IMG/VR virus record: IMGVR_UViG_3300032156_000049
Span: 1-34,572 of that record
Reading direction: 5' to 3' (one strand)
Length of the DNA: 34,572 bases
Source: a virus
This document shows positions 3,008 to 21,487 of the stretch, one piece after another. The notes beneath the pieces were generated by a model. It searched no databases and was not told the origin of the DNA. It was given only the letters and a program-made list of their open reading frames with translations. The translations under genes were made by a program, and so were the position numbers. The stretch's first letter is position 1; each line of letters starts with the position of its first letter.

Positions 3008-3294
3008 ATTCTGAACGGGTCGCGCTCATGTCTCTTTTGGAAGATCCCCGCTATAAACTCCTGCAGGAATTATGGAGAAAACAGGTGGAAAAAGTTCAAC
3101 AGGGCAGGGATAAGGCGGCTTCCCAGGGACGTAAATCGGCCTGGAGATACTGGGCGGGGCAGGAAAAAGGATTCATGCTGGCGATTACATCCATTGATCG
3201 GGCAATCCTTGAGATGGATTCAGTTGAAGATAAGTCGGAAACGCAGATTGAGATCGAAAAAATGATTTACGAAATTCGAGGAGAACCCAAATGA
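3004..3294 (+). CDS. Small helical protein in the capsid module
   Basis: A 96-residue, charged and mostly helical protein of unknown function. The ATG at 3004 overlaps the portal stop in an ATGA junction; longer in-frame starts inside the portal gene are not credible. The sequence is rich in Lys, Glu, Gln and Arg with short heptad-like stretches (residues about 15-45 and 60-90) and no membrane segment. Small proteins at this position in podovirus genomes are often head-assembly accessories, but nothing here identifies a family. Its stop overlaps the start of the next gene (ATGA), so the genes are translationally linked. Confidence 0.75.
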   Translation: MNSERVALMSLLEDPRYKLLQELWRKQVEKVQQGRDKAASQGRKSAWRYWAGQEKGFMLAITSIDRAILEMDSVEDKSETQIEIEKMIYEIRGEPK

Positions 3295-3638
3295 AACGAT
3301 TCCTGATTGCTCTAGTTGTGGCGTCGATGCCGCTCATGGCGATGGCGCTTGAGGTATGGACGTCCAGCCAGACAAACGTTGCCGCCGCGTCTCAGAAATT
3401 GTGCTCTGGTTACAGGGCTGTTCTGCATGGAGTATGCGTATCGAGCGCGACGCAAGCTCAAGTGACATCAAACATCCAGTTGTCCAATTCGAGCTGGACG
3501 GTTTCGGCGTTCCCGACGACGGGGCTGATTGATACCCGCGCTGTCGGATGCCAGGTATTCGACGTGATTTATTCAACGGGAATTTTTTACACAAAGACAG
3601 GAACGTCGAACGTCAACATTCTTTACAACTGTTACTAG
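3291..3638 (+). CDS. Secreted protein of unknown function in the capsid module
   Basis: A 115-residue protein with a clear Sec signal peptide: a basic start (MKRF), a hydrophobic core (LIALVVASMPLMAMA) and a signal peptidase I-like end (MAMA before LEVW). The mature part is about 95 residues, rich in Ser, Thr and Val with predicted beta strands, and has four cysteines that could form disulphides outside the cytoplasm. It starts at an ATGA overlap. Signal peptides are unexpected between portal and scaffold genes. A second protein of similar size and layout follows the coat gene (5447-5836). It may be a surface decoration or an exported host-altering protein; the function is not known. Confidence 0.75.
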   Translation: MKRFLIALVVASMPLMAMALEVWTSSQTNVAAASQKLCSGYRAVLHGVCVSSATQAQVTSNIQLSNSSWTVSAFPTTGLIDTRAVGCQVFDVIYSTGIFYTKTGTSNVNILYNCY

Positions 3639-3649
3639 AAAAGTAAATC

Positions 3650-3663
3650 CGGGCTACGGCCCG
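3650..3663 (+). other. RNA hairpin with UACG tetraloop
   Basis: CGGGC and GCCCG pair in a 5-bp stem around TACG, a UNCG-type tetraloop with the stabilising C-G closing pair. It lies in the 42-nt gap between the secreted protein and the scaffold gene, upstream of the scaffold ribosome binding site. No T run follows, so it is not a classical terminator. It may be an mRNA stability or processing element. Confidence 0.55.
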
Positions 3664-3680
3664 TTACAGGGAGACTCACC

Positions 3681-4535
3681 GTGATCGAGTCAGGAACAGC
3701 CAACGCGGGGGAAGATGTTTCGACCCCCGGAGCAACCGTAAAAACGACCTCCGATATTTCACCGGAGACGGGGAGTGTTGCCCCCGAAGGCGGACAAAAT
3801 CCGTCAGGAGAAAGCGCCGGAGACTCGCAAGAGTTTTCCGAAGGTGGTTCGGACGATGGACGTCAAGGGCGATTCAGTGGACGCTCGAAACTCGGGACCA
3901 TCCGAGAACTTCGAGCGAAACTCCGCGAGGAGCGTTCGCAACGGGAAAGTTTAGTCGGGGATCTGCAATCCCGGCTGGACAACCTCGAAGCGAAACTCCG
4001 CCCCGCTCAGAACGACCAGCGTCCCAGCAGGACGTTTTGGGAAGCTCCAGAGGATGTGTCCCGCGAACTCACTCGGGCTGAATTAAAATCGTTCAAGGAA
4101 GAACTCTTGGGCGAACTCAGGCAGACCGAGCAGGAACGCGAACAGACCGCTGAATGGAAGCAAGAAACGTCGGAAGCCACCAAATTCATCCGGACTCAGA
4201 AGGGCCTCACGCCGGAAGATGAAGAAGAAGTCGCTGACATTGTCCGATCAACGCCGTCTATGATGAATCTTCGCCCGATGGAGCGAGCCGAATACGCGAT
4301 GTTTCTTTGGCAGAAACAGAAGGGTATCGGCGACAAGTCCTCTATCAAAGCGAGAGCGTCGACGGTGGCCGGTTCCACCACGTCCACCGGAGGCAAACGA
4401 ATATGGACGGACGCGGACATGAAGCGTGAAATTGACAAGTTTTCTGGGTCGAAATGGACCCCAGAACAAGTCAAAGCCTTCGACGTCTTAAACCGGGAGT
4501 TTGAGGATGCCGTTCGAGAAAACCGGCTGAAGTAA
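3681..4535 (+). CDS. Capsid scaffolding-type protein
   Basis: A 284-residue, highly charged protein placed directly before the coat gene, the usual site of the scaffold. The N-terminal 70 residues are low-complexity (Gly, Ser, Glu, Pro, Thr). A coiled coil follows (about residues 70-115, with RELRAKLREERSQRE) and then acidic helices. The C-terminus is basic-acidic helical (about 240-284), as in scaffolds that bind the coat with a C-terminal helix. The start is a GTG at 3681 preceded by AGGGAGA. A protease role is not supported because no catalytic motif is visible. The call rests on position, composition and coiled coil; sequence homology was not tested. Confidence 0.75.
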   Translation: MIESGTANAGEDVSTPGATVKTTSDISPETGSVAPEGGQNPSGESAGDSQEFSEGGSDDGRQGRFSGRSKLGTIRELRAKLREERSQRESLVGDLQSRLDNLEAKLRPAQNDQRPSRTFWEAPEDVSRELTRAELKSFKEELLGELRQTEQEREQTAEWKQETSEATKFIRTQKGLTPEDEEEVADIVRSTPSMMNLRPMERAEYAMFLWQKQKGIGDKSSIKARASTVAGSTTSTGGKRIWTDADMKREIDKFSGSKWTPEQVKAFDVLNREFEDAVRENRLK

Positions 4536-4539
4536 TCTA

Positions 4540-4551
4540 GCGGGAAACCGC
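4540..4551 (+). other. RNA hairpin with GAAA tetraloop before the coat gene
   Basis: GCGG and CCGC form a 4-bp stem around GAAA, a GNRA tetraloop. It sits between the scaffold stop and the coat gene, just 5' of the coat ribosome binding site (AAAAAGGAAA). Short stems of this kind can keep the binding site free or protect the 5' end of a processed coat mRNA. Confidence 0.45.
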
Positions 4552-4567
4552 AAAAAGGAAATAAGTC

Positions 4568-5434
4568 ATGGCAAACGAAACTGGCCTCGACTCTACAGGC
4601 ATTTCGACAGCCGTTCCAGCGTGGCTCAGGGCGAGAGCCCTTAAAGCCCGCTATGCGGCGTCGAAGGTGTGGAAACACTGTCTGAACGGGATCGAGGGAG
4701 ACCCTATGGTGAAGGGGAATATCACCCGAGCAGGAGATCGCGTTACGTTCCAGATTTTCCCGGAACTGACGCCCTCCGACATCAGCACAACCGACGGGAC
4801 TTTCACAGACACCGAAATCTCCCCGACGGCGAAATCAGTGACGATCAACAAATGGAAAAACGTCTCGGCCAACTTGGTCGATATCGTGGAAGCTCAGGCC
4901 ATCCTGCAATGGGAAGCGGAATTTGCCGATGCCTTTGGCAAAGCCATTTCTCAAATCCAGGACTCTGACATCCTTGATCTCGTTCCTTCGTTGGGGTCTT
5001 ACACCATCCAGGACGCAGGCCCCATGTCGGACTCGAAAGTCCTTCTGGCGCAACGGTATCTGGACGATGGGGACGTTCCGAAAGACGATCGATGCTGGGT
5101 GCTGGCTCCCGTGGCTCACGCGGACCTCATGGCGATCGATAAGTTCACGCTGGCGAATACCACCGGATTCTCGCGTGGGATTCAAGTCGGCGATGGGCGC
5201 ATTGTCGGTCTCTACGGAACGCCCGTTGAAGTGTCGACGGAAGTCTATACGACTTCCTCGAAACGAGACAACGTGCTGTTCCACCGCGAATGCTTCGGAG
5301 TGGTGATGCAGAAAGACTTCAAGATGGAGAAGTTTGCTCGAACGAAATACGCGACGAACTACGCCGGGTCTGCCCTTTATGGCGTTGCGGAACTCCGCGA
5401 CGATCATGGAGTGTGGGTCCAGAGCGCGGCATAA
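4568..5434 (+). CDS. Major capsid protein
   Basis: A 288-residue protein with the features of an HK97-fold coat protein of the P22-like/podovirus kind. These are an N-terminal helical part, the strand-rich region around GDRVTFQIFPEL (about residues 57-68), a long central helix with EAQAILQWEAEFADAFGKA (about 108-126), and a C-terminal half with the typical G-x-P-V-E-V segment (GTPVEVSTEVYTT). The ending (GVAELRDDHGVW) also resembles coat proteins. It follows the scaffold gene and has a good ribosome binding site (AAGGAAATAAGTC before ATG). No fused scaffold or protease is seen, and no extra insertion domain is obvious. Confidence 0.85.
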   Translation: MANETGLDSTGISTAVPAWLRARALKARYAASKVWKHCLNGIEGDPMVKGNITRAGDRVTFQIFPELTPSDISTTDGTFTDTEISPTAKSVTINKWKNVSANLVDIVEAQAILQWEAEFADAFGKAISQIQDSDILDLVPSLGSYTIQDAGPMSDSKVLLAQRYLDDGDVPKDDRCWVLAPVAHADLMAIDKFTLANTTGFSRGIQVGDGRIVGLYGTPVEVSTEVYTTSSKRDNVLFHRECFGVVMQKDFKMEKFARTKYATNYAGSALYGVAELRDDHGVWVQSAA

Positions 5435-5446
5435 GGGGGGACGACC

Positions 5447-5836
5447 ATGAGAAAACTAATCGTCGTTCTCTCGATTGCGGTTCTGGGACTGGTTTCGGCG
5501 TCTTATGCGTCAAATGTGCGCGGAGCAAAAGGGAAGAAGATCGTGAACTTCTCAGCTTCTGCGGCCTTGGCGTGTTCGGGTCCCGCGACGGTGTATTCGG
5601 TGTTCGCAGGGACAGCAACGGCGGCCATAACGGACTATATTGTGTTGCGGGATTCCAACACCGCTAACACAACGTCCACCCCGTCGTTTTACATTGTAGC
5701 GACCAGCACGGCAGAGAAGCAGGTGACTCTTGATCCTCCCCTTATTTTTCAAAATGGGGTCTCGATCAACGGTCCCGCGACGATGCCGTTCTTCGGCGTT
5801 TCATGTGAAGCGGGCTACGCGACAGGCGGAGAATAA
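5447..5836 (+). CDS. Secreted protein of unknown function after the coat gene
   Basis: A 129-residue protein with a Sec signal peptide (MRKLIVVLSIAVLGLVSASYA, cleavage expected near SYA-S). The mature part is beta-rich (Thr, Ser, Ala, Val) with two cysteines, one near residue 44 and one near 121. A strong Shine-Dalgarno (AAGGGGGG) precedes the ATG. Its place directly after the coat gene would suit a head decoration protein, but an N-terminal export signal argues for a role outside the cytoplasm. It parallels the signal-peptide protein at 3291-3638 in size, export signal and position next to a capsid gene. The function is not known. Confidence 0.75.
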   Translation: MRKLIVVLSIAVLGLVSASYASNVRGAKGKKIVNFSASAALACSGPATVYSVFAGTATAAITDYIVLRDSNTANTTSTPSFYIVATSTAEKQVTLDPPLIFQNGVSINGPATMPFFGVSCEAGYATGGE

Positions 5837-5845
5837 TGTCTCAAT

Positions 5846-5877
5846 CCCGCAGGGGGTTCTTCGGAGCCTCCTGCGGG
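5846..5877 (+). terminator. 14-bp hairpin with UUCG loop between capsid and tail modules
   Basis: Bases 5846-5859 pair with 5864-5877 throughout (12 Watson-Crick pairs and two G-T wobbles). They close on a C-UUCG-G tetraloop, among the most stable RNA loops known. It lies in the longest gap of the capsid module. There is no T run downstream, so it is either a partial or factor-aided terminator, or a processing and stability element that sets coat mRNA above tail mRNA. Confidence 0.6.
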
Positions 5878-5888
5878 GGAGTGTTTGA

Positions 5889-6146
5889 ATGAAAAATTGC
5901 GCTGGTTGCGGAAAGCCTTCTTCGACGCTCCACCTGGACGGGGAGGCGTGGGTATGCAGACATTGTTTCCACGCTCCGGCAGTTCCGGCGGGATGCAATT
6001 TGTTTGAGAGGGGACACGAAAATCCGATGGACCCCGACGGGACCACGGCCCATATTCGAGACATCAAGGCGCGACGGTGGGACCCGAAAGAAAATCGGGT
6101 GTTCTACTACGCGCCTCCCAGGGGATACTCGTTCCCGAAAGGATAA
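5889..6146 (+). CDS. Small zinc-ribbon protein
   Basis: An 85-residue protein with two cysteine pairs near the N-terminus (CAGC at residues 4-7 and CRHC at about 23-26). They frame a short beta hairpin, the layout of a zinc ribbon, followed by a basic, proline-rich tail. It begins after the UUCG hairpin and ends 2 nt before the next ATG. It could bind nucleic acid or protein, or simply be a small structural accessory. No family is recognised. Confidence 0.7.
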   Translation: MKNCAGCGKPSSTLHLDGEAWVCRHCFHAPAVPAGCNLFERGHENPMDPDGTTAHIRDIKARRWDPKENRVFYYAPPRGYSFPKG

Positions 6147-6148
6147 CC

Positions 6149-6556
6149 ATGAACGCCAAAACAGAAGCAACGATCCAGTCCGTCAAAGAACTCCAGAACG
6201 AAATCAACGCATGGGAGGGGAGGCTCTTGGGGGTCAAAAATGACATCCAGAACCTGACGGCGCAGAAAGTGAAAATCCTCAAAGAAATCGAGGACATCAA
6301 AATCGCGTGGTCCCATGAATACGAACAAAAGGCTGGACTTCTCCGCCAGGAATCCGCAAAGCTCCATGAGGAAATGGCGGATCTTAAAGCCAAGCGGGAA
6401 GAAATCAAGCTGGCGGCTTCCGAAGTTTTAAGAGATCGGAATTCCGTTGAGGCGCAGAAATCCAAAGCCGTAGATGCGGAAACGAACTTTCTGGCGATGA
6501 ATGAGAAAATCGGTAAGTTCATCACGCTTGTCCGCCGGGAAGCCGAAAAACTCTAA
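6149..6556 (+). CDS. Coiled-coil protein
   Basis: A 135-residue protein that is almost entirely heptad-repeat coiled coil: it runs from VKELQNEINAWEG through the KREEIKLAASEVLRD region and on to the C-terminus. The ATG at 6149 is chosen because it follows the previous stop by 2 nt and starts the helical part; longer in-frame starts run into the previous gene. There is no signal peptide. Its stop overlaps the adaptor gene start (TAATG). The role in head completion or tail attachment is unknown. Confidence 0.75.
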   Translation: MNAKTEATIQSVKELQNEINAWEGRLLGVKNDIQNLTAQKVKILKEIEDIKIAWSHEYEQKAGLLRQESAKLHEEMADLKAKREEIKLAASEVLRDRNSVEAQKSKAVDAETNFLAMNEKIGKFITLVRREAEKL

Positions 6557-7200
6557 TGGCGAATCGCGTCAGCCTCACCACGCAAGTGCGGATGCTGATC
6601 GACGAGAAAGATTCCAGCAATTCGCATTTTACGGATTCGGAGATTTATTCGTTTCTGAACCAGGCGATCCGCTACTTGGGGGTGGATGTCGAATGGCCCC
6701 TGCAGACAGCGGAAGCCACTTCCGTCGCGGATCAGCCCGTCTATACGCTTCCCGATGATTTCGTTTCGTTATCAGATGTGTATTTCGACGGAACGGATCT
6801 GACGGTCCTCGATCGGTCCGATCTTTCGGTTCTTTCGTCGACCTGGCAGAATGCTCCTTCCGGAACTCCGAGGTACGCCTATAAATCCGACAACGCGAAG
6901 TTCGGACTTTACCCGAAGCCGAACAGCACGGAGTCAGGAAAGATCATCCAGATTCAATACATCAAAGTTCCCCCGGACTTGTCCGACGACGTTTCGACGC
7001 CGGACATTCACTCGGCCTTCAATGATTGTTTGCCGTTTTACGCGGCTTTCATGTGCGAAAAGTCTATGGGAAATATCAAGTCGGCGGACCATAACATGAA
7101 CCTGTACGAGATGCATAAGAAACGCCTCCAGTCGAAGGTTCAGCGTTTCGCGGATGATCTCTTGAGGTTCCGGTGGTCCGACCCGAGGGGATATGGCTGA
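6556..7200 (+). CDS. Head-tail adaptor protein
   Basis: A 214-residue protein resembling the adaptor proteins that sit below the portal in podoviruses. It has an N-terminal helical pair (about residues 5-45, ending FLNQAIRYLG), a beta part with YTLPDDFVSLSDVYFDG (about 75-91), the DNAKFGLYPKP segment (about 114-124), and C-terminal helices. This order of features is typical of the adaptor family found between coat and nozzle genes in short-tailed phages. The start is the ATG of a TAATG junction. The stop overlaps the next small gene by 8 nt. Confidence 0.75.
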   Translation: MANRVSLTTQVRMLIDEKDSSNSHFTDSEIYSFLNQAIRYLGVDVEWPLQTAEATSVADQPVYTLPDDFVSLSDVYFDGTDLTVLDRSDLSVLSSTWQNAPSGTPRYAYKSDNAKFGLYPKPNSTESGKIIQIQYIKVPPDLSDDVSTPDIHSAFNDCLPFYAAFMCEKSMGNIKSADHNMNLYEMHKKRLQSKVQRFADDLLRFRWSDPRGYG

Positions 7201-7411
7201 TTTCACGAATACCATTGAGCAGGGCGTTCCTTTCACCTCCGTTGAATTGGACGAAGGAATCGACTTTGTTGGCGTCGGCGATGCCGGGACCATCACGGTT
7301 GAAGGGTCCGCTTACGGGGAAGGCAATTACGGGGAAGGCCCCTACGGAGGGAGCGCGACCTATATTCTTTCTTACGGGACGACCGAGTGGACGAACGTGG
7401 ATACCCCATGA
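7193..7411 (+). CDS. Small Gly/Tyr-rich tail-module protein
   Basis: A 72-residue protein with a Gly-Tyr-Glu-rich stretch in the middle (AYGEGNYGEGPYGG, about residues 40-53) and beta-prone ends. It overlaps the adaptor gene by 8 nt and the nozzle gene by 4 nt (ATGA), with GAGGGG upstream of its ATG. Small proteins with this composition occur between adaptor and nozzle genes in other podovirus genomes. The function is unknown. Confidence 0.65.
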   Translation: MADFTNTIEQGVPFTSVELDEGIDFVGVGDAGTITVEGSAYGEGNYGEGPYGGSATYILSYGTTEWTNVDTP

Positions 7412-10179
7412 CCGCCCTCATCGAAGAAGCCGAGCAGGTTATCGTCGACGAATGGGGGACGCTTAATACCGCCGCGTCTCCGAGCAAACTCCCAAAGGGA
7501 CATTCGCCAAACAATCAAAATGTATGGATGGACGAGAAGCCCGGATCTGTTATCACGTCCATGGGGTACAGCAAACTGGGGACGCTCCCCAGCGATAACC
7601 CGCCCACTTTTCTACTCAATTTCTTTAAAACATCCGACGGATCATCGAAGCTGATTGTTTCTGACGGAGTGACGGTCTGGTGGACGACGGACTACACGAC
7701 CTATACGCAGATTACGACGGGACTTTCGGAGTATTTCCAGCTTCGCGGGATGGTCATCCGCGATAAGGTATGGCTCACGAACGGATCAGATCCCGTTATG
7801 ACATGGGACGGATCGACCCTCGCCACGTTGGACGGAACGGCCGGAACTCCGAACGTCCCGAAAGGGAAGTTTATTTCCTACCACGATGAGCGCGTATGGA
7901 TGTATGGGATCGACGGAGATTTGTCCGCCGCCCGGTTCTCGGCATTGGCCGATTCGACGGGAGCAGAAATTACTCCGGACGATGCCGATGCCTGGCCAGC
8001 CGATAATGAAATCCAGATTTCAGAGGGCGATGCAGACCGGGGGACGGGGATATTTATTCTTCGCGGGTATCTCTATTGCTCAAAGCAATATTCGATGTGG
8101 CGGATCACGGGTTACGACGAATACAACTACTCGCGCGTGAAAACGCGGTCCTCCACGGGGACTCGTTTTCAGGAATCCATCCAGATTCGCGACAACTTCG
8201 CGGAGTTCATCGGTGTTGACGGCCTCTATGTTTTCGACGGGGAAGAATCCGTCCGCGTCTCGGATATCGTCGATCCGGCGTCGTCGGAAGAAGGGGTGTT
8301 CGCGTTCAGGAACCTCCAGCAATCCCTCCTCAACAACCAGTTTTGGAATGTCTCGGAAGCGACGGACTTTGCTCTCGGGACAGTCCCTGCGAACCTTGTA
8401 ACGACCGACGATCGGCTTACGCTGGTCCCGGCAGATAATGCACAAGCGGATTTCGCCGCAGGAACGCACGATGACACGACGGATTCCGAGAACGCCGGAT
8501 ATCTCCAGCTCGCCCGTGTGAACTCGGGGGCTTACGGGAGCCTTCTTTCGACAGGGAAGTCCTCGTCGATGACCGGATACACCTCTCAAGTCGGAGATGT
8601 CGCTTTCATTACAGACGGGAATACGAGCAACTGGGCGGGGCATCTCAACAATGTAAGTTCCGGGTCTTTTTCCTGGGGGGTCGATCTCGGGGAGGCTTTT
8701 TACGTTTCGAGGATCGTTATCAAAAGTTTTTATGCGGAGTGCCAATCGGATGGTAGTTCTAGTGTTTATATAGCGGCCTTGCGAATAGAATCTTCCAGTG
8801 ACGGGAGTTCCTGGACGGATAGAGGAAGCGTTTTATCTCAAGCTCCCGCGGTTGTTTATTATTACGCAGGGACCGGATCGCCCGTCATGTTCCCGAACAC
8901 ATCGGACTGGGAGTCCCGCGCCGCAACAGATTTAACGCTCGATATCACAACGACAAACGCCCGTTATTGGAGATTGTATTGCGTAGCGAATAAGGCTTAT
9001 TATTTATTGAAGGAAATCGAGATCTATGGCGCCGCTTACGAGACGGATGGAAAATTCATTTCCAGATCGCTTGATTTTGGGACCGCCCCTGCTTCCTACG
9101 GAACACTTGCGGCCGCTATCGTTTCGAACGGAGAGGCTTATCAATTCTTCACGCAATCTTCCACGGATAATTCCACGTGGGATTCCGAGGCGAATGTAGC
9201 GAATGGGGCCGCTATTACTTCGGCGTCGAAACGATATCTGAGATGGGGGGTCTATCTCTATTCGTCTACAGGAGTCTATACGCCTGTCATCGACAAGGTT
9301 TACGTCGGAAGCACCTATATTTCAGAGATTCACAATACCGGGGGCGATATTTTCCAATGGGGAGCCTTCCAGGTATCGCAATTCAAGGCAGGGCAGACCG
9401 TCACCGCCTACTATAGGGCCGCCGCCACTTCCGTCGGTGTTGCCTCTGAATCATGGACGGCGATTGTCCCCGGCGCTTTTCCTTCCGCCGATTTAACGGA
9501 CGTCTATATACAGATCAAACTTGAGCTTTCGACAATAGACGCCACCCAGGCGCCCTACGTCGACAGTTTTACGGTGAACTGGATTCTATCCTCCGGTGTC
9601 GGCGTCAATACTTTGCAGAACGTGGCCTCTATCGTCATTTTGAATCGCTACTGGCTTACGGCGGCCACGCTCGGAGCCGAAGAAAATGACATTATTATCG
9701 TCAGGGGGAAATCCACTTTCAACAGTCCGTGGCATAAGAAAGATTTCAAGGTTTTGTCCTTCTGCCGGTTCCAGGACTACTACATCGCCGGGTCGAGCGA
9801 GGATGGTTCTATTTATCGTCTTGAGTATGGATATTCAAAAAACGGATCGGCGATGGATTCCTACTATGAGACGGCGGATTTCTCGAAAGACGGATTCATG
9901 CTGAAAGGCCGGGAACTCCTCGTGGATACGGAGCGGAGCGGGTCTTACAATTTATCTATTGGATGGTCTACGGATGAAGGACTCACCTACACGGAGAAAT
10001 CGATCGACCTGACAAGGGATTCCGGCGATTCGACCTCTTTCACAAAACGTTTGAATATCAATTTTATGTCCGAGGGAATAAGGTTCCGCGTCAGGATCAA
10101 CGGGGCGGATCAGCCTTTTTGCGTCAATGGGATTACTTGTTATTACAGGGTGAGCCCCCAGCGCGGGAGTATTGAATGA
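7408..10179 (+). CDS. Tail nozzle-like protein with an inserted discoidin-type domain
   Basis: A 923-residue beta-rich protein in the place of the tail tubular B/nozzle protein, which closes the short tail and is built as a beta-propeller. Residues about 1-360 show repeated blade-like segments (WMDEKPGSV, VTVWWTTDYTTYTQ, VWLTNGSDPVMTWDG). Residues about 365-545 look like an F5/8 type C (discoidin) carbohydrate-binding fold. That part includes FITDGNTSNWAG, a W-G-V-D-L-G strand, RIESSSDGSSWTD, and ARYWRLYC near its end. The rest returns to propeller-like strands. The ATG at 7408 overlaps the preceding stop (ATGA); an in-frame ATG at 7387 is less likely because it lies inside that gene. The discoidin-like insert may make the nozzle a glycan binder. 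Confidence 0.75.
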   Translation: MTALIEEAEQVIVDEWGTLNTAASPSKLPKGHSPNNQNVWMDEKPGSVITSMGYSKLGTLPSDNPPTFLLNFFKTSDGSSKLIVSDGVTVWWTTDYTTYTQITTGLSEYFQLRGMVIRDKVWLTNGSDPVMTWDGSTLATLDGTAGTPNVPKGKFISYHDERVWMYGIDGDLSAARFSALADSTGAEITPDDADAWPADNEIQISEGDADRGTGIFILRGYLYCSKQYSMWRITGYDEYNYSRVKTRSSTGTRFQESIQIRDNFAEFIGVDGLYVFDGEESVRVSDIVDPASSEEGVFAFRNLQQSLLNNQFWNVSEATDFALGTVPANLVTTDDRLTLVPADNAQADFAAGTHDDTTDSENAGYLQLARVNSGAYGSLLSTGKSSSMTGYTSQVGDVAFITDGNTSNWAGHLNNVSSGSFSWGVDLGEAFYVSRIVIKSFYAECQSDGSSSVYIAALRIESSSDGSSWTDRGSVLSQAPAVVYYYAGTGSPVMFPNTSDWESRAATDLTLDITTTNARYWRLYCVANKAYYLLKEIEIYGAAYETDGKFISRSLDFGTAPASYGTLAAAIVSNGEAYQFFTQSSTDNSTWDSEANVANGAAITSASKRYLRWGVYLYSSTGVYTPVIDKVYVGSTYISEIHNTGGDIFQWGAFQVSQFKAGQTVTAYYRAAATSVGVASESWTAIVPGAFPSADLTDVYIQIKLELSTIDATQAPYVDSFTVNWILSSGVGVNTLQNVASIVILNRYWLTAATLGAEENDIIIVRGKSTFNSPWHKKDFKVLSFCRFQDYYIAGSSEDGSIYRLEYGYSKNGSAMDSYYETADFSKDGFMLKGRELLVDTERSGSYNLSIGWSTDEGLTYTEKSIDLTRDSGDSTSFTKRLNINFMSEGIRFRVRINGADQPFCVNGITCYYRVSPQRGSIE

Positions 10180-10412
10180 GCGTCAACCCAAAACAGCCCG
10201 TCTTGAAGTCGGGGCTTTACAGGAATGAATCCTCCATGTTCACCGACATGAACGCCCTTTTTCGATCTTTTGCGACGAGAACGCTTCGTCCTTCTCGGAC
10301 CAGCCCTCCCATCGCGGCGGACGTGGACGAATTGACGTTTGTGTACGACAAAACTTTGAACAGGCTCTATACTAAAGTGAATGGAACGCTTCGTTACGCG
10401 GCGTTTACGTGA
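10176..10412 (+). CDS. Small tail-module protein
   Basis: A 78-residue basic protein starting at an ATGA overlap with the nozzle gene. The C-terminal part (about residues 52-78, with FVYDKTLNRLYTKVNGTLRY) predicts a beta hairpin pair of a type often seen in small phage tail proteins. It has no export signal and no known motif. It is probably a minor virion protein; the function is not known. Confidence 0.7.
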   Translation: MSVNPKQPVLKSGLYRNESSMFTDMNALFRSFATRTLRPSRTSPPIAADVDELTFVYDKTLNRLYTKVNGTLRYAAFT

Positions 10413-10420
10413 GGTGAAAA

Positions 10421-10867: not shown

Positions 10868-10879
10868 CAGGAGGATGCA

Positions 10880-11413: not shown

Positions 11414-11416
11414 TTT

Positions 11417-14054: not shown

Positions 14055-14070
14055 GCGGGGGGACAAGAAA

Positions 14071-15186
14071 ATGCGCTCAAAACTGATTCTGGGGGCCTTC
14101 CTGATGATTCTAGGAGGTTGTTGCTATGCCGATACGCTTTCCCCGCGTATTGGACTGACGCTTCCAACGACAGGGCAGGCGGATAGCTGGGGGGCGAAGC
14201 TGAACCGGAATTTCGAGGTTATTGATTCAAGCGTCGCTATCCCTTCCGCCGCAACGACCGTTACGGCCCCGTGGGTTTTCACATCCAGCGTGGCGTTTTC
14301 GACTTTCAGTGTCGCCCAAGTCAGGATCGGTAGCACGTCCTATTCGGGATCAGAAAAGCTGATAGTGGACGGGACAACAAAGTTAATGGGCCCAGCGGGG
14401 ATTCTCCAACTTTGCGATTTAAATGGCGAGAATTGCACTCAATTATACGGAGGATCGGGTGTTTCAACTATTTCTCTGGACCAGGATTCATGGCTTTGGA
14501 TAAATGGCGGTGGATCAAATTGGATTAATTATCAACTTTCTTGCGACCCAGATAGCTATTGTTATAGGTATCAAGACACATTATCGAAAACGGGGGGTGC
14601 CGGTTCTGCAACGCATACCATGTGGAATCCATCCATATCGAACAGCTTTGCTGGGACTGCGGATCTCTTTGGGTTTCTGTTTAGCCCTGAATTTTTTGGT
14701 TCTCCTGGAGGAGTATCCCACCACGCAATTTATGTCGCGAATAGATCTAGTTCTCCTGTTGGAGGAATCAATTACAGCATCCATGTCGTCCCTATAAATA
14801 TATCTACAGGCACTACTTCGGATTATGGGATAAGCGTTGATATGAGCGAAGTAAAAAATGAGAATGCGACAAAAATATCCGGAAAATTTTCAGACGGAGA
14901 ATTTATTGTTGAGGGATCGACTAGAAATGCCTACTCTGTCGTAGTTTCTACCTACGGATCAACCGCATATCATCTTTCTGTATCAACTTCTGGAGCAACT
15001 ATATTCGGAGGCCCTTTTAGACCACAATCAAAAATGAAAGCTCAAATTCAGGCCATTGCTTCTCCTCGCCCGATAGCAGGGGACTCTTATTATTGTTCGA
15101 ACTGCGTTCGAGATTCCGTCTGCACTTCAACGGGAGGGATCAACTCATTCGTCGCCGTCAGCTCGCGGACGCAAGCGTGTAACTAG
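14071..15186 (+). CDS. Tail-fibre-like protein with lipoprotein-type signal
   Basis: A 371-residue protein. The N-terminus (MRSKLILGAFLMILGGCCYAD) has a basic start, a hydrophobic core and L-G-G-C, which fits a lipobox; signal peptidase I cleavage at CYA-D is the alternative. The segment RIGLTLPTTGQADSWGAKLN (about residues 25-44) is the motif found at the start of many phage tail fibres. The rest is Ser/Thr/Gly-rich beta structure, with four clustered cysteines near the C-terminus (YYCSNCVRDSVC). The start at 14071 is favoured by GGGGGGA 8-10 nt upstream; in-frame ATGs at 14041 and 14047 lack a good site. A fibre with an export signal is unusual. Confidence 0.7.
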   Translation: MRSKLILGAFLMILGGCCYADTLSPRIGLTLPTTGQADSWGAKLNRNFEVIDSSVAIPSAATTVTAPWVFTSSVAFSTFSVAQVRIGSTSYSGSEKLIVDGTTKLMGPAGILQLCDLNGENCTQLYGGSGVSTISLDQDSWLWINGGGSNWINYQLSCDPDSYCYRYQDTLSKTGGAGSATHTMWNPSISNSFAGTADLFGFLFSPEFFGSPGGVSHHAIYVANRSSSPVGGINYSIHVVPINISTGTTSDYGISVDMSEVKNENATKISGKFSDGEFIVEGSTRNAYSVVVSTYGSTAYHLSVSTSGATIFGGPFRPQSKMKAQIQAIASPRPIAGDSYYCSNCVRDSVCTSTGGINSFVAVSSRTQACN

Positions 15187-15195
15187 GGAGGATGT

Positions 15196-15468
15196 ATGGC
15201 GAACACTTACGATTCCGTCAGCGTTGATACCAACGCGACGCTTGTTGTCGCGAAGAACCGATTTCGCCGCGGGGTGACGGTCTACAACAACGGGACCGCT
15301 ATTGTTTATATCGGATTCGACGATGCGGTCGATGCAACAAGCGGGATGCCCCTCATCCCAAGAGCAACCGCCTCATTCAACCGTGTTTTCGACGGTTTGC
15401 GCGGGTCTATTTATGGGATAGCGGCCAGCGGGACGCAGGATGTCCGTTACATGGAGTGGGAATCTTGA
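15196..15468 (+). CDS. Small beta-rich structural protein
   Basis: A 90-residue protein predicted to be a compact beta sandwich (VTVYNNGTAIVYIGFDD, about residues 28-44; RYMEWES at the end). AGGGAGGA precedes the ATG. Proteins of this size and pattern are common next to phage fibre genes and may be head or fibre accessories. It has no signal peptide, unlike both neighbours. The stop overlaps the likely TTG start of the next gene. Confidence 0.7.
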   Translation: MANTYDSVSVDTNATLVVAKNRFRRGVTVYNNGTAIVYIGFDDAVDATSGMPLIPRATASFNRVFDGLRGSIYGIAASGTQDVRYMEWES

Positions 15469-18425
15469 AAAAACTACTCCTATCGCTCGTCGCTCTTGTT
15501 TCTCCGATTTTCCTATCAGCGGATGTTAATAGCCCCCCTCTTAATATCGAAGAAATTGACGGATCTCCGTCGGCTTTCCCCTATAAACTCAAGGTGACAA
15601 ATTCTTCACTCACGGACAATGGGGACGGGACCGTTACGCTCACGATTGGAAGCGGTGGGGGCGGATCATCTTCTCTCGCCATCTTTGATGAGGGGGTACA
15701 GATTTCAAGTCCAACCGCCATCGTCAATTTCGTTGGTTCCGGCGTCGCGGCCACGCTGACGGGGGGTGCAACGGCCACCGTCACAATCTCCGGCGGTGCT
15801 GGCGGCGGAGACAACCTGGGTTCTCATGTTTCCACAAAGACGATCACGGCGGACTTCGGGATTCAGGGGTCTACCATCGCCATGAACGCTTTCAATGCTT
15901 CAACAACGAGCATGACGGTGACGGGGAGCGGGGGCATGACGATCAGTTCAAATTCTTACCTCTCTGGCGGTGCGACCATCTTCGCCAATAGACAAGTCCA
16001 CATGACAAAGTTGAAATTCAACTCGGACGGCCCTCTTGTCGCGTCCGTCATGGACATCGCTCCTCCGTCCGTTACGACCGGGACTCCATTTGTCTACCTC
16101 TACGGAAATACAGCCGGAGGGCAGGAACTCATTGGGATAAAGATGGCCGGAGGGGGAACGGGGGCCTGGACGGGGTTTAGGTTCGAGGCCGGGGGGACGA
16201 CGACAAACACGGGGATTCAGATGCAGGGAAGTGCCGGAGGGACAAATACGTTTATCGGCGTTGACTGTTTCAATACAGGGTCAGGGGGAACAAACTCGAC
16301 ATGCTTTAAGGCTGTACCTAGTGTCGCGACGAATCGCGTCGGGTTCTATGCGAGTGCGACAGGCGGGACGATCAACCGCGCTATCCAAGTGGATGCGGGC
16401 GACGTTCAGATGAACCAGTTGACGGCTTCTCAGTTTGTCAAAACGGATGCGAACAAGAACCTCATGTCGGCCAGCAAGGTGAGTCTTTCGACAGAGACGG
16501 TCGGGGATCTTCCAGCTGGACTTGCGGTCGAATTGGCGACGGGCACCATTCGCTCCGATCTCGATCAAGTGAAACTGGATACCGGGACTATCAGGGGGAT
16601 GGTGGAGAACAAAATTGTTTCTCTTTCCACGGGAGTCATGGGGAACCTCCCCGTCACGAACTTGGCCGCCGGATCGGGAGCCACATCTTCGACCTTCTGG
16701 CGAGGGGACGGGAGTTGGCAGACTCCGGCTGGTGGAAGCGGCGGAGGATATGCCGTTGAACCCGCGACCGTTTCTTTCCAGTTGGACCAAGGATTCGACG
16801 CGACGACGGCGACTTTTACAGCCGTAAACCCACTCACATTTCGTTTCGACGGGACGGGTTCATGGACTCGTGATTTTAGTTGGATTTCAAATGGAGGAGG
16901 TGGAGATACAACCGAGGCCAAGTGGGGATTCGCGAACGTGACGCTCGGATCGGAAATTAGGAGATTTCGATTTCAAAATGTATGGGGTGAAGATGTTGGC
17001 GGTTTTAATCTCGAAGATGGGGACGGCCCAGGGTTCTATGCGAGAGCCGATATCTATTCGGAACCACCCCATGTCCCCTATTTCAGACTTTATGACGTTG
17101 ATAACACGAACCACGTTTCCATTAAACCCGCTTCAGCTATAGGGACAAATTACACCATAACCCTACCCGATGCGGTCCCTGGATCTCTCCAGTGTCTCAC
17201 CATGACAACGGGAGGAACGGTTGGATACACAGATTGCGGAGGAGGTGGCGGTTCCTCGTCGTTGGCCGTATTCGACGGAGGAGTAAAGATATCCTCTCCA
17301 ACTTCAATTCTCGCCTTCGACGGTTCGCAGTTCGACATCTCTCTCCTTGGGAGCGCGACAGCCGAAATCGAACTGAGTCCATCCAGCGTTACGCTCCAGG
17401 GGAACTCTCGGACGTTTGAGGGGTTGGCTGTCGCGACAGGAACAATCCGTACCGATCTCAATCAGGTCAAACTCGACACGGGGACCATCAACAGCTCTAT
17501 TGCCGCTGTTGCTCTCGCCACGGGGACTATCCGAACAGACTTAAATACCGTCAAGCTCGACACCGGGACCATCCGGGGGATGGTCGAAAACAAGATCATC
17601 AGCTTATCCACGGGTACTGTCGGAGTCCTTGGATATCAGATCTCCCTTTCTTCTGGATCAATGCAGGATCTATGGAAGGTGTCGCTCTCTACGGGGACGA
17701 TGGCGACTTTGCCCTATCAGGTGTCTCTCGCCACAGGAGTCATGCAGAATCTTTGGAAGGTGTCCTTATCGACAGGCGTCATGGACAACCTCTACTACAA
17801 AGTGTCGCTCGCTACTGGGACTATGGACGTATTGCCTTATAAGGTGTCTCTCTCTACGGGGTCCATGCAGGATCTATGGAAGATCAGCTTATCGACAGGA
17901 ACGATGGGGCTCCTCGGATATCAAGTTTCCCAAGCGACTGGAGTGACGGGAGAGTTTAATCATCAAGTCAGCCTCTCGACGGGGACAACGGGCGTTTTGG
18001 GGTACAAGGTGAGCCTTTCGACTGGCGTAACGGGAGATTTGGCGGGGGGGTTGGCCGTCCAACTCTCGACTGGCATCCTCCGCGCACAGACCAAATCTGT
18101 CGCCATCTCAACGCCGACGGTCGGAGATTCCAACTACGTCCAATTCGCTTTTGCCAAAGCCGTCACGATCACGCGCGTCTACTGCGCGACGGACCAGGGG
18201 ACACTCACGATACAGTTGGACGAACGGGCCGAAGCGACCCCGAACACGGCTGGAACCAATGTCCTCAGCGGGAATCTTGCGTGTGATAACAACACGGAAT
18301 CGACGACGAGTTTCTCGAACGCCCCCATCGCGGCGAATGTCCCGCTGAACCTCCAAATCATCTCCATGGCGAGCGATCCGAATATCGTCCGCATTCATAT
18401 CGACTACACAGTAGATGGAACATGA
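15465..18425 (+). CDS. Large repetitive tail fibre/adhesin with signal peptide
   Basis: A 986-residue protein. TTG at 15465 is chosen as start: it overlaps the previous stop (TTGA), has GGAG about 8 nt upstream and gives a clean signal peptide (MKKLLLSLVALVSPIFLSA); GTG at 15456 would add three residues. The first domain has NGDGTVTLTIGSGGG, a fibre-type shaft start. GSGATSSTFWRGDGSW (about residues 403-418) is a motif common in phage tail fibres. A duplicated unit (SSSLAxFDxGVxISSPT) occurs at about residues 67-82 and 597-612. About ten 13-14-residue repeats (SLSTGTMxxLPYKV type) fill about 713-870. A beta-sandwich end domain follows (about 885-986). It probably binds the host surface and may be exported. 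Confidence 0.75.
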   Translation: MKKLLLSLVALVSPIFLSADVNSPPLNIEEIDGSPSAFPYKLKVTNSSLTDNGDGTVTLTIGSGGGGSSSLAIFDEGVQISSPTAIVNFVGSGVAATLTGGATATVTISGGAGGGDNLGSHVSTKTITADFGIQGSTIAMNAFNASTTSMTVTGSGGMTISSNSYLSGGATIFANRQVHMTKLKFNSDGPLVASVMDIAPPSVTTGTPFVYLYGNTAGGQELIGIKMAGGGTGAWTGFRFEAGGTTTNTGIQMQGSAGGTNTFIGVDCFNTGSGGTNSTCFKAVPSVATNRVGFYASATGGTINRAIQVDAGDVQMNQLTASQFVKTDANKNLMSASKVSLSTETVGDLPAGLAVELATGTIRSDLDQVKLDTGTIRGMVENKIVSLSTGVMGNLPVTNLAAGSGATSSTFWRGDGSWQTPAGGSGGGYAVEPATVSFQLDQGFDATTATFTAVNPLTFRFDGTGSWTRDFSWISNGGGGDTTEAKWGFANVTLGSEIRRFRFQNVWGEDVGGFNLEDGDGPGFYARADIYSEPPHVPYFRLYDVDNTNHVSIKPASAIGTNYTITLPDAVPGSLQCLTMTTGGTVGYTDCGGGGGSSSLAVFDGGVKISSPTSILAFDGSQFDISLLGSATAEIELSPSSVTLQGNSRTFEGLAVATGTIRTDLNQVKLDTGTINSSIAAVALATGTIRTDLNTVKLDTGTIRGMVENKIISLSTGTVGVLGYQISLSSGSMQDLWKVSLSTGTMATLPYQVSLATGVMQNLWKVSLSTGVMDNLYYKVSLATGTMDVLPYKVSLSTGSMQDLWKISLSTGTMGLLGYQVSQATGVTGEFNHQVSLSTGTTGVLGYKVSLSTGVTGDLAGGLAVQLSTGILRAQTKSVAISTPTVGDSNYVQFAFAKAVTITRVYCATDQGTLTIQLDERAEATPNTAGTNVLSGNLACDNNTESTTSFSNAPIAANVPLNLQIISMASDPNIVRIHIDYTVDGT
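17601..18074 (+). repeat. Tandem 39-42-bp repeats in the fibre gene
   Basis: Ten or eleven imperfect units encode S-L-S/A-T-G-x-M/T-x-x-L-x-Y/W-K/Q-V, 13 or 14 residues each. Alternating units end in LWKV or LPYKV, so the higher-order period is about 80 bp in places. The pattern predicts a regular trimeric fibre shaft. Upstream, the related unit ATGTIRTDLNQVKLDTGTI is itself repeated three times (about 16534-16590, 17434-17490 and 17515-17575). Confidence 0.8.
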
Positions 18426-20395
18426 TCCGGTTCCGGTGGGTCGCCCTGTCGGTATTCCTTTTCCCCGCCCTTGCCCACGGGTTGACGACACTTACGGTCC
18501 AGCCTGATGCGACCGCTGGCATAGATACCTACAACCAGAAGAACTTGGCCACCACCACGGACGGGACAGAGGCGAACCCTGCCGTCAACGGAGATGGGAC
18601 TTATACGCAATATGTATTTATAAAGTTTGATGTAACGTCTATCCCGGCTGGAGCCGTTATCAGTAGCGCAGTTGTAACTTTGGTCGCCTCGACCGCCGAT
18701 TCGGCGGTCAATCACTATATGAGGATTTGGAATATAAAATCGGCGAATAGCACATGGACGGAAGCGGGGGCCTGTTGGAATTACACGACCGGGACAACAG
18801 CGTGGGCCGGGGGGAGTAACGGGGGCGGCGTCATCGGGACAGATGTTGACGTTTCAAGCATTGGCGTCACGGAGAATTTAAACAGTCGTGGAGCAGGGGC
18901 GTTGGCAATTTCCATAAGCACTCAGACGGTCTACAGTTGGGTGAATACAGGGAATTACGGAATTGTCATAAATAATGACGCGAGCTATACCAACATTTAC
19001 ACGTCGGACTATGCGACCGCCGGGAGTCGCCCGAAGCTCTATATCGAATACGATACGCCTCCCTTGGATCAAGGAAATTTCAGATTTCGAAACGATGATG
19101 GGTCTGAGACGGGCGCCACGTGGTCGGCGGACGAGAATGCGAACTTAACGCAATCCTCCGGGACCAATGTCCGGTTCCGGGGGGTAGTAGATTCTTCCAT
19201 GGACGTGACATCGGCGCAATACAGACTTGACTACGCGACAGCCTCTGTCGGCGTCACCTTTGGCCAGATCGGGGACGGGACAAGAATTATCGGGTATCTC
19301 ACTCCGGGTACAACCTCAGCGGGGTCGACATCGCTTCTTGTCCCCTACCCGAGCGGTATCAAATCGGGGGATTTACTCGTAATGGCCGTTGGCGTTAGGC
19401 CCGGGACCGTCGTCCCGACCATCCCTCCGGGTTGGACTACGCTTGCCGATTCATCGGCAACGGCAAAATCCGTCGCGGCGGAAGGCGTTGATTCCGGGTC
19501 AGCGAAAGCCATCGTTTTTGTGCGTGAATCCACCATGACGATTTCCGGGAGAGAATCTATTTCCTTATCTGGAGGAAGTTGCGGCCTCGGGACGATGTAC
19601 CGATTCAATAAAACGCCTGGGAATATCTGGGACTTCCAGACCGTCTATGGGAGCGACAGTATTCCCAACAGTGCTGTCTGGCTTTCGACCATGAATACCA
19701 TCCTCAACGTCGTAAGTTCCGATGTGGTGGTGGCTGTATCAGCCATCAATAACGATCAACAGAGCTTTGTATCAGAATCGGTCCAGACCAACGGTGTCAC
19801 GTATAGAGGAGGGGACGGGGAATTGGACGATCTCGCGACCACGACAGGGAACGATATGCGACTCGTCGTCTCGACCTTCGTCGCCATCGCAGGGGAAGCG
19901 GTGCTTCATTCCACCTACACCATGACGGCTTCGACGTGGAGCGGGGCAAGGCCTGTTGGAGGAACCGTCCTGTTAAGGATCAGGGAGATTGAGGCCCCGA
20001 TCCACCTTTCCTCCTCCCCATGGATCACCTCAAGCGGACAGGCGACAACGGCGCAGTTGACATCTCCTGCAGGAAAATCTGGTGCCAATTTTACGACGGG
20101 GAGAATGCAGTACGACGAAAATCCAGCGGATGCGGTCGATATCATCTCGAACTTCTACAGCGAATTCGAGTGGAATCTTGTCGCCAGGAGTACGCCGTCT
20201 GTCTGGGGGAATACCTACTACCTGAAAATCACTTCCAGCGGGACCCTGTTTGACAATTACATTACAACGCCATCATGGACGATAGGGACGTATACCGGAG
20301 GCGGGTCCACGACCACGACCACCACCACAACGACCACCACCACGACGACGGTCCCCGGTGCCTACAAGAGAAAGCGGATTTGGATGATCGAATGA
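18422..20395 (+). CDS. Secreted adhesin with DNRLRE-type domain and poly-Thr tail
   Basis: A 657-residue protein starting at an ATGA overlap. A signal peptide (ALSVFLFPALAHG) ends near residue 20. Residues about 22-215 match a DNRLRE-type carbohydrate-binding domain: FIKFDVTSIPAGAVISSAVVTL, then TWTEAGACWNYTTG with aromatic positions, then a closing PKLYIEYD strand. Residues about 280-530 form a second beta domain (GDLLVMAVGVRPG, PPGWTTL), a type I associate with phage and surface proteins. A third beta segment follows. The C-terminus is a Gly linker, 14 threonines and V-P-G-x-Y-K-R-K-R. The linker plus basic end looks like a cell-surface spacer. A host-binding or display role is inferred. 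Confidence 0.7.
   Translation: MIRFRWVALSVFLFPALAHGLTTLTVQPDATAGIDTYNQKNLATTTDGTEANPAVNGDGTYTQYVFIKFDVTSIPAGAVISSAVVTLVASTADSAVNHYMRIWNIKSANSTWTEAGACWNYTTGTTAWAGGSNGGGVIGTDVDVSSIGVTENLNSRGAGALAISISTQTVYSWVNTGNYGIVINNDASYTNIYTSDYATAGSRPKLYIEYDTPPLDQGNFRFRNDDGSETGATWSADENANLTQSSGTNVRFRGVVDSSMDVTSAQYRLDYATASVGVTFGQIGDGTRIIGYLTPGTTSAGSTSLLVPYPSGIKSGDLLVMAVGVRPGTVVPTIPPGWTTLADSSATAKSVAAEGVDSGSAKAIVFVRESTMTISGRESISLSGGSCGLGTMYRFNKTPGNIWDFQTVYGSDSIPNSAVWLSTMNTILNVVSSDVVVAVSAINNDQQSFVSESVQTNGVTYRGGDGELDDLATTTGNDMRLVVSTFVAIAGEAVLHSTYTMTASTWSGARPVGGTVLLRIREIEAPIHLSSSPWITSSGQATTAQLTSPAGKSGANFTTGRMQYDENPADAVDIISNFYSEFEWNLVARSTPSVWGNTYYLKITSSGTLFDNYITTPSWTIGTYTGGGSTTTTTTTTTTTTTTVPGAYKRKRIWMIE
18691..18709. 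repeat. Perfect 9-bp inverted repeat inside the adhesin gene
   Basis: GACCGCCGA and its exact reverse complement TCGGCGGTC flank a single T. In RNA this gives a GC-rich hairpin within the DNRLRE-encoding part. It is coding (ASTADSAVNH region) and may be chance, given the GC-rich codons used. Confidence 0.4.
20309..20350 (+). repeat. ACN microsatellite encoding 14 threonines
   Basis: Fourteen threonine codons in a row, almost all ACC or ACG, form a slippage-prone trinucleotide tract near the 3' end of the adhesin gene. Changes in copy number by whole codons would alter linker length without breaking the frame. Confidence 0.8.
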
Positions 20396-20898
20396 AAACG
20401 CGCGCAGAACTTAATTCGGGGATCACCACTCTCGGACAAACAGCCGGTGTCGTCGATTCATCTCTTGTTGACCTCTACCGGAATGTTCACCTGGATGCTG
20501 GGTCCATTTTCTCGGTCGGACTCGTCCATGGGAGCAAGGGATCAAACATCCAGATCCCCGTCTTGCTCCTCAAGGGGCACGGGTCTATCAGTGCGCTTCA
20601 ATTTGACCTTCTTCTTCCGACTGGATTCACCTACCAGAGCGTTTCAACGGGATCTGCTTCAACGGCTTCCGGGAAGTCCGCCAGCGCCAATCTGCTCCCA
20701 TCAGGGTTGCGCGTTCTGATTTTTGGCCTCAATCAGAACGTAATCGGTACCGGGGTTCTGGCGACGGTCCAGGTCCGTCTTGAGAGTTCCCTATCGCTCC
20801 CAAATTACTCCATACCGATTTCGGGGATTGTCTCATCTGACCCGAACGGTCTTGTCGTCACAACATCAGGAGTGACGGGGACGGTGATAATCCCATGA
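20392..20898 (+). CDS. Cohesin-like domain protein
   Basis: A 168-residue protein. The ATG at 20392 overlaps the adhesin stop (ATGA). After a short N-terminus (TRAELNSG, residues 3-10), residues about 45-168 follow the cohesin pattern of nine-strand jelly-roll modules. These are a G-S-K-G-S-N-I-Q-I-P-V strand, SISALQFDLLLPTGFTYQSV, an N-rich turn with LRVLIFGLNQNVI, GTGVLATVQVRLES, and a final GLVVTTSG-VTGTVII. Cohesins bind dockerins in cellulosomes but also occur in many unrelated surface proteins. No dockerin is visible in the window. It has no export signal of its own. It may be a virion or surface attachment module. Confidence 0.6.
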   Translation: MKTRAELNSGITTLGQTAGVVDSSLVDLYRNVHLDAGSIFSVGLVHGSKGSNIQIPVLLLKGHGSISALQFDLLLPTGFTYQSVSTGSASTASGKSASANLLPSGLRVLIFGLNQNVIGTGVLATVQVRLESSLSLPNYSIPISGIVSSDPNGLVVTTSGVTGTVIIP

Positions 20899-21179
20899 GA
20901 AAGAAAATTTTAGTCGGAGAAGATGACGCGCTTGAGTTCATTATCAAGGAACTTCAAAGTCTCACAAATCGGATCGAAAGGATGGAACAAAAAATGGCAA
21001 CGCGATTGGAACTGAATGCAGGGTTGGACGGGATCACGGGATCGCTTCTATCGCTTACGGCGGCGATTGATGAGCTGAAGGCGGCGATCGCCTCCGGCGC
21101 TGATTTCCAAGTGGAATTAGACAAGGTGACGGCCATCAATGCGGCGATCCAGGCGGCTATCGCCAACGCTCAAGTCTAA
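20895..21179 (+). CDS. Coiled-coil protein sharing a motif with the cohesin-like protein
   Basis: A 94-residue helical protein beginning at an ATGA overlap. Residues about 10-35 form a coiled coil (IIKELQSLTNRIERMEQKM). ATRLELNAGLDGITG (about 35-49) resembles the N-terminal TRAELNSGITTL of the preceding protein. The last 40 residues are Ala-rich helix. The shared short motif may be an interaction tag for a common partner. The function is unknown. Confidence 0.7.
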   Translation: MRKKILVGEDDALEFIIKELQSLTNRIERMEQKMATRLELNAGLDGITGSLLSLTAAIDELKAAIASGADFQVELDKVTAINAAIQAAIANAQV

Positions 21180-21190
21180 GGGAGGTCAGC

Positions 21191-21487
21191 ATGAAACGGT
21201 TGCTGGTTTTACTGTTACTGGCGACCCCGGTATCAGCGGCGGATATCGTCATCACCATCCCCGACGCGCTGTTGCCTCGGGTGATCGACGGGTTCTGCGG
21301 GGCTTACAACTACGACGTGAACCGCTCATCGGCCACGAGCGAAACGAGGGCGCAATTCTCTCGTCGAATGATGATGGCGGTCATTCGGGCTACCGTGGTG
21401 TCCTATGAGTTCGGCGTCGCTCAGACGAGCGCTCGCCAGGGGCTGGAATCTGTCACTCAGCAGATCCAGAGTGAGGTTGCTTTCTAG
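21191..21487 (+). CDS. Conserved phage protein carrying a signal peptide
   Basis: A 98-residue protein. The signal peptide MKRLLVLLLLATPVSA is followed by ADIVITIPDALLPRVIDGFC and a helical C-terminus with RAQFSRRMMMAVIRATVVSYE. Apart from the signal, this is the pattern of a small protein of unknown function found near fibre and lysis genes in many tailed phages (IPDA-x3-RV, then K/RAQF-x-R-R). As I know that family, it usually begins right at the ITIPDA strand without an export signal, so the signal here is notable. AGGGAGG precedes the ATG. Confidence 0.7.
   Translation: MKRLLVLLLLATPVSAADIVITIPDALLPRVIDGFCGAYNYDVNRSSATSETRAQFSRRMMMAVIRATVVSYEFGVAQTSARQGLESVTQQIQSEVAF

Follow-up and report, generated by a model that had tools for sequence, protein, structure and literature searches.

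Conserved Sec-type signal peptides on tail fibres and head-cluster proteins of tailed phages, and a possible docking of these proteins on virions at lysis

The window analysed here, a linear IMG/VR virus record of 34,572 bases, contains six genes (starting at 3291, 5447, 14071, 15465, 18422 and 21191) whose products begin with predicted Sec signal peptides, and comparison with related contigs reveals that such signals are conserved on two small head-cluster proteins and on the tail fibres of its clade. Sequence features make export of the signal-bearing proteins highly probable. Our preferred reading, to which we assign a probability of about 0.45, is that the fibres and the jelly rolls of the head region are exported, reach their fold in the periplasm and attach to virions once the cell lyses. 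Tail fibres decide the host range of a phage, and the assembly of tailed phages is taught as wholly cytoplasmic. Conservation of an export signal on fibres and on proteins of the head cluster leaves two options: the last steps of assembly can take place beyond the cytoplasm, or some phages cover the infected cell with proteins that resemble fibres. Either would be new, and since the trait is present in cultured phages of Acidobacteriota, both are already open to testing.

All six N-termini display a positively charged n-region, a short hydrophobic h-region and an AXA-type site, as expected of Sec and signal peptidase I substrates, and the same features are present in their homologues. The genes lie on the plus strand (a slash marks the predicted cleavage site). 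SP3291 (3291..3638), located between a portal-side gene and the scaffold gene, consists of a 19-aa signal peptide (3291..3347; MKRFLIALVVASMPLMAMA/LEVW, site AMA/L) and a 96-aa jelly roll with four conserved cysteines. SP5447 (5447..5836), immediately 3' of the major capsid gene, consists of a signal peptide (5447..5509; MRKLIVVLSIAVLGLVSASYA/SNVRG, site SYA/S) and a jelly roll of about 108 aa. The remaining four genes belong to the fibre block. The tail fibre encoded at 14071..15186 carries its signal peptide at 14071..14130 (MRSKLILGAFLMILGGCCYA/DTLSPRIGL), followed by an N-terminal anchor domain (SPRIGLTLPTTGQADSWGAKLNRNFEVIDSS, 14140..14232) and a Cys-rich C-terminus. The 986-aa fibre at 15465..18425 (MKKLLLSLVALVSPIFLSA/DVNS) contains the motif TFWRGDGSW and repeated VSLSTG units; it begins with TTG, with a GTG at 15456 as the alternative start, and roughly twelve VSLSTGTMGxLxYK-type units can be recognised over 15456-18425. 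A 657-aa protein with a Thr-rich C-terminal linker (18422..20395; MIRFRWVALSVFLFPALAHG) and a 98-aa IPDA-family protein (21191..21487; MKRLLVLLLLATPVSA/ADIVITIPD), whose homologue in contig L009 likewise has a signal peptide, complete the set. A small protein within the fibre block (15196..15468, plus strand) is without a signal peptide and serves as an internal control.

The initial annotation had described the six signals as Sec or lipoprotein-type. The Sec assignment holds for all six proteins, while the lipoprotein reading of the 14071 fibre has to be abandoned. This fibre is the only one of the six with a candidate lipobox Cys at +1 (LGGC), which is not conserved; its homologues align instead at an AXA-type site without a lipobox Cys (CYA/D here; CHA/G, VHA/G and GYA/A in homologues). 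The signal is therefore best read, from this alignment, as an ordinary signal-peptidase-I signal. An outer-membrane spanin was considered for the 21191 protein and rejected, as its site is VSA/A and a lipoprotein signal with lipobox was not found.

Misassigned start codons, N-termini that are hydrophobic by chance, or an error in contig assembly might mimic such signals, and some of the starts are indeed GTG or TTG. A Shine-Dalgarno (SD)-like sequence precedes the starts at 3291, 5447, 14071, 15465 and 21191; the 18422 start, which overlaps the stop codon of the preceding gene, has none. However, a strong SD core is present at 31 of the 58 signal-peptide gene starts of the clade, compared with 10.6% expected at random, and some SD-like sequence at 46 of 58. 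The low background pass rate (1.6%, see below) also speaks against an artefact, and conservation of the signals in 12 further distinct contigs and in cultured isolates contradicts it, leaving this explanation hardly conceivable. No conserved internal start between signal and anchor, which would give a signal-less copy, was found in the clade, and production of signal-less isoforms through internal re-initiation is thus unsupported.

Relatives of the window phage were identified by capsid and portal searches (56-75% identity); their contigs are partly incomplete, and L003, being nearly identical to L002, was not counted separately. Homologues of SP3291 and SP5447 bear signals in all 12 distinct related contigs that cover them (16 and 13 proteins, respectively, including those of the window). 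In every relative covering the region, the 3291 gene is located between the portal-side gene and the scaffold gene and the 5447 gene right after the capsid gene. The mature parts of these homologues are only 22-51% identical to those of the window, and in L021 the gene at the 5447 position has no BLAST hit, yet it aligns. The 3291 gene also occurs in tandem, with two copies in L002 (8378-9079) and three in L007 (1679-2685), each copy having its own signal. An anchor-bearing fibre with a signal is present in all nine readable fibre blocks of the clade, most of which contain one to four more signal-bearing proteins beside it. The anchor domain is found in the 14071 fibre and in its positional counterparts of eight relatives, with an invariant Trp and Asp. 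Conservation among relatives, which had been named in advance, together with detection outside virions, as support for the observation, is therefore seen both for the two head-cluster families in the 12 distinct contigs and for nine of nine clade fibres.

The frequency of signals was assessed with a simple rule set of our own, not SignalP. Among open reading frames of at least 300 aa, 16 of 20 (80%) in the clade fibre blocks passed the test, against 3 of 189 (1.6%) in 79 other viral contigs (Fisher ~1e-17) and 0 of 38 in the clade head/tail core. At internal start codons the background pass rate was 4/1093 (0.37%). It can be argued that the proteins are assembled in the cytoplasm and that their hydrophobic N-termini are not export signals but segments active in membranes or embedded in the virion, since cleavage is only predicted, and by such a rule set. 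However, the h-regions are short and end in AXA-type sites, their sequences have diverged while the type is kept, signal-less homologues exist elsewhere, and paired cysteines point to an oxidising compartment. We consider this possibility very unlikely.

Even numbers of cysteines and their paired gain or loss are a product of disulfide formation in an oxidising compartment. Of the 16 mature SP3291 proteins, 15 contain four cysteines and one contains two; in the alignment, L004 has lost columns 52 and 96 together, and L024 has lost 128 and gained 46. Exactly two cysteines are found in 8 of the 13 SP5447 members and none in the other five, and the pairs occupy five different column pairs (27/134-136, 95/107, 76/122, 70/120 and 62/123). 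The count is thus even in 24 of 24 Cys-bearing members of the two families, whereas signal-less families of the same contigs give 28 even and 57 odd counts; the corresponding p = 5e-10 overstates independence because the members are related. Cysteine density is 39 per 1000 residues in SP3291 and 4-5 in capsid, portal and nozzle proteins. The large signal-bearing fibres are Cys-rich as well (10.9 versus 4.6 per 1000), with a weaker bias towards even counts (22 even, 9 odd, p = 0.03; one of the odd counts includes a Cys inside the longer L028 signal). Cysteines that are even in number and gained or lost in pairs suggest disulfide-bonded exported proteins, and so lend independent support to export.

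AlphaFold models of the mature SP3291 and SP5447 domains are small jelly rolls (pLDDT 84.7 and 76.5, respectively). Among solved structures, those with a nucleoplasmin-type fold match best (for SP3291, VIA Z 8.5 and Foldseek E 3e-4; for SP5447, Z 7.7); for SP5447, Foldseek gave no match at or below 0.001. Weaker matches include the HFTV1 turret (Z 7.0 and 6.1 across the two jelly rolls) and the KHP40 cement protein (Z 6.3 to both). Like the modelled domains, the HFTV1 turret and the KHP30/KHP40 cement proteins are small jelly rolls, and they sit on phage capsids; however, the likeness is a fold match only (Z 6-7), with no sequence relationship shown. Matches of this middling quality could reflect a common fold only. 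The models are thus consistent with, but not proof of, a role as capsid or tail decoration. Among predicted viral proteins, SP3291 has many matches of 86-100 aa from uncultured tailed phages, a length that leaves no room for a signal ahead of a domain this large.

The gene order of the window starts with terminase, portal, a small gene, SP3291, scaffold, major capsid, SP5447, two small genes and an SU10-type adaptor, and continues with a small gene, a 930-aa nozzle-like protein, internal genes, a glycosyltransferase, the fibre block (14071-21487) and lysis-side genes. The virion core (portal, scaffold, major capsid, adaptor, nozzle-like protein and internal genes; 1253..13332, plus strand) is without signal peptides except for SP3291 and SP5447. 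In profile searches the SU10-type adaptor scores 76.7 bits (PF24175, cut-off 27), Head-tail_con 27.9 bits (cut-off 27) and SU10_portal 22.7, below its cut-off of 30. In INPHARED, no relative of the window was found by nucleotide search, nor any for the portal, fibre or nozzle proteins; the only matches were for the terminase and, distantly, for the capsid. A prophage search of genome_contigs with the capsid and portal alignments found none. The coat proteins of filamentous phages (Inoviridae) are virion proteins that carry Sec signals and pass the inner membrane, and in this they resemble the signal-bearing proteins described here. However, the window phage has a terminase, a portal and an HK97-type major capsid protein without a signal, and is not a membrane-assembled phage of the Inoviridae type.

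A family 2 glycosyltransferase gene (13332..14054, plus strand) is located upstream of the fibre gene and is present in several relatives; its product could modify exported fibres. A signal-less gene directly 3' of the Thr-rich tail of the 18422 protein (20389-20898) encodes a cohesin domain (PF00963, 31.5 bits, cut-off 24.1), and a homologue with 34% identity is present in the L028 fibre block.

The anchor domain is widespread outside the clade. Its alignment is too variable for a profile scan, and DNA patterns were used instead; the pattern for WGxxxNxNFDxID gave at least 80 viral loci. In 78 of the 79 assessable loci among the matches listed, the anchor lies just behind the start of the protein (MASTYT...), and only one (L070) has a signal. 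Anchor-domain proteins sampled from other viruses match PHROG tail-fibre families. Ordinary tail fibres with T-x-x-x-G-L-x-x-P ... WGxxxNxNFDxID hence share their N-terminal anchor with the clade fibres but differ in what precedes it, a Sec signal being present in nine of nine clade fibres against one of 79 among the wider matches listed. This agrees with the earlier suggestion that several of the six are otherwise ordinary phage proteins. The L070 fibre with signal and anchor (4627-6066) adjoins terminase-like genes in a contig that is otherwise unrelated.

The IPDA family is mixed in the same respect. A single-protein scan with the 21191 protein gave no matches, but a DNA pattern did give relatives: the signal is present in the window, in L009 and in the T7-like contigs L168, L169 and L171, and absent in L170, L172 and L173. 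The signal-bearing 663-aa protein of L171 has a body homologous to signal-less fibre-like proteins of Pelagibacter phages. In L171, and also in L168, a T7-type fibre gene without a signal is followed downstream by four genes in a row whose products bear signals (3496-6987 of L171). Homologues starting after the hydrophobic stretch, which the initial annotation would have taken as evidence against the signals, were not found in the 3291 and 5447 families or among the clade fibres, but only in other phages with the fibre domain or the IPDA protein. Such signal-less homologues, both anchor fibres and IPDA proteins, indicate that the signal is a derived trait.

We propose the following sequence of events. 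The six N-termini would act as working Sec signal peptides, and during infection the two jelly rolls, several large fibres and the IPDA protein would be exported across the inner membrane, lose their signals and fold with disulfide bonds. The signal-less capsid, portal, scaffold, adaptor and nozzle would meanwhile be assembled in the cytoplasm. Lysis would bring the naked virions together with the waiting exported parts; the fibres may then dock through the N-terminal anchor domain that they retain, and the jelly rolls on capsid or tail. Periplasmic storage followed by docking is favoured because the fibres have not lost their anchor and the proteins bear no mark that would direct them to the outer surface. 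The link to the virion is suggested by gene position, the retained anchor, the lack of a conserved internal start and the jelly-roll folds, weakly similar to the HFTV1 turret and KHP40 cement protein. A diderm host fits a periplasmic stay until lysis; if the host is monoderm, export would take the proteins out of the cell.

The main rival to docking is that the exported fibres and jelly rolls are not virion parts and act at the cell surface or outside the cell, coating the cell or its surroundings, masking receptors, blocking superinfection or serving as decoys. Export itself, well supported, suits this reading equally, and a tailed phage exporting a protein to the envelope has a precedent in lambda Lom (PMC12309495). 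Lambda Lom/Bor-type proteins are phage-encoded and envelope-exported, as proposed here, but they are outer-membrane proteins or lipoproteins and not tail fibres with an anchor domain. In the Acidobacteriota phage Tunturi_4 and in L171, a T7-like contig, the exported proteins are accompanied by a distinct anchor protein that has no signal, which implies that an exported protein is not necessarily part of the virion. Signal-less receptor-binding candidates are also found in the clade, and they count against docking. One such candidate is the conserved nozzle-like protein (7387-10179), with an F5/8 type C sugar-binding domain scoring 28.0 bits against a Pfam cut-off of 28.2. However, the clade fibres retain in nine of nine cases an anchor domain used in the tail fibres of other phages, the genes are part of the head and tail-fibre clusters, and neither a lipobox nor any other feature that targets the surface was seen; in a diderm host the proteins would thus stay periplasmic until lysis. 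On the same grounds (the retained tail-attachment domain, no conserved internal start yielding copies without a signal peptide, no outer-surface mark) we do not follow the original proposal that export removes these proteins from virions. We regard action at the cell surface as rather unlikely, and joining of virions at lysis as at least as likely as coating of the cell.

It is also conceivable that the inner membrane is where capsids or tails reach completion, or that the exported proteins serve lysis or release, as adhesins or envelope-disrupting factors, and not attachment. The 21191 gene adjoins a one-TM coiled-coil gene and DUF5675/holin-like genes, and the SP5447 fold matches PBSX XepA (Z 6.8), a lytic-cassette protein (PMC6834076). 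However, the 3291 and 5447 genes are located far from the lysis genes, within the head cluster, in all relatives, and the fibre genes encode typical elongated fibre sequences, which makes a role in maturation or lysis improbable compared with docking on virions.

Signal-bearing virion-type proteins are also present in cultured phages of Tunturiibacter (Acidobacteriota), to which the search for the anchor led. In the podovirus Tunturi_1, signals are found on gp12 (1190 aa), on gp13, where an anchor-like sequence follows, on gp14, which is annotated as a tail spike, on gp16, and on gp17, which is annotated as a virion structural protein; none of the other virion proteins tested has one. The gp13 of Tunturi_2 is 99.7% identical. 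L167, a relative of Tunturi_1, has a different signal-bearing protein in the gp12 position. In the siphovirus Tunturi_4, gp113, gp114 and an extended start of gp111 carry signals, and the neighbouring gp112 is the signal-less anchor protein. As in the clade, signal-bearing fibre or spike proteins of Tunturi_1 and Tunturi_4 stand beside a signal-less virion core; however, their genomes are unrelated to the clade, and no signal-bearing genes were seen in the Tunturi head cluster. No signals were found on virion genes of Tunturi_3 (first 50 kb) or on fibre genes of Tunturi_5. Because phages of one host genus differ in this way, the trait is not simply a host feature. HTVC111P and Pf-WMP3, the nearest cultured capsid relatives of the window phage, have no signals in the virion and late genes tested.

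At least four genome types that are unrelated to one another show the trait. We are aware of no tailed phage whose virion is completed beyond the cytoplasm. We tentatively suggest, at somewhat less than even odds, that several unrelated tailed-phage lineages complete theirs there, with adhesins and capsid decorations that are Sec-secreted, oxidised, stored in the periplasm and added at lysis. A search of freely readable published articles found no precedent for signals on tail fibres or capsid decorations, and the paper describing the Tunturi phages does not mention signal peptides and reports no mass spectrometry (PMC11924767). The initial impression of an undescribed pattern is thus right as regards the literature found but not as regards known phages, since the cultured Acidobacteriota phages do show it. 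A signal peptide has been used to rule out a phage origin of variable receptor-like proteins (PMC6199706); our observations warn that it should not serve this purpose.

Elsewhere in the window, a minus-strand gene (24445-25038) encodes a protein rich in AAYAADA-type repeats, and the opposite strand contains long poly-Arg and poly-Pro frames.
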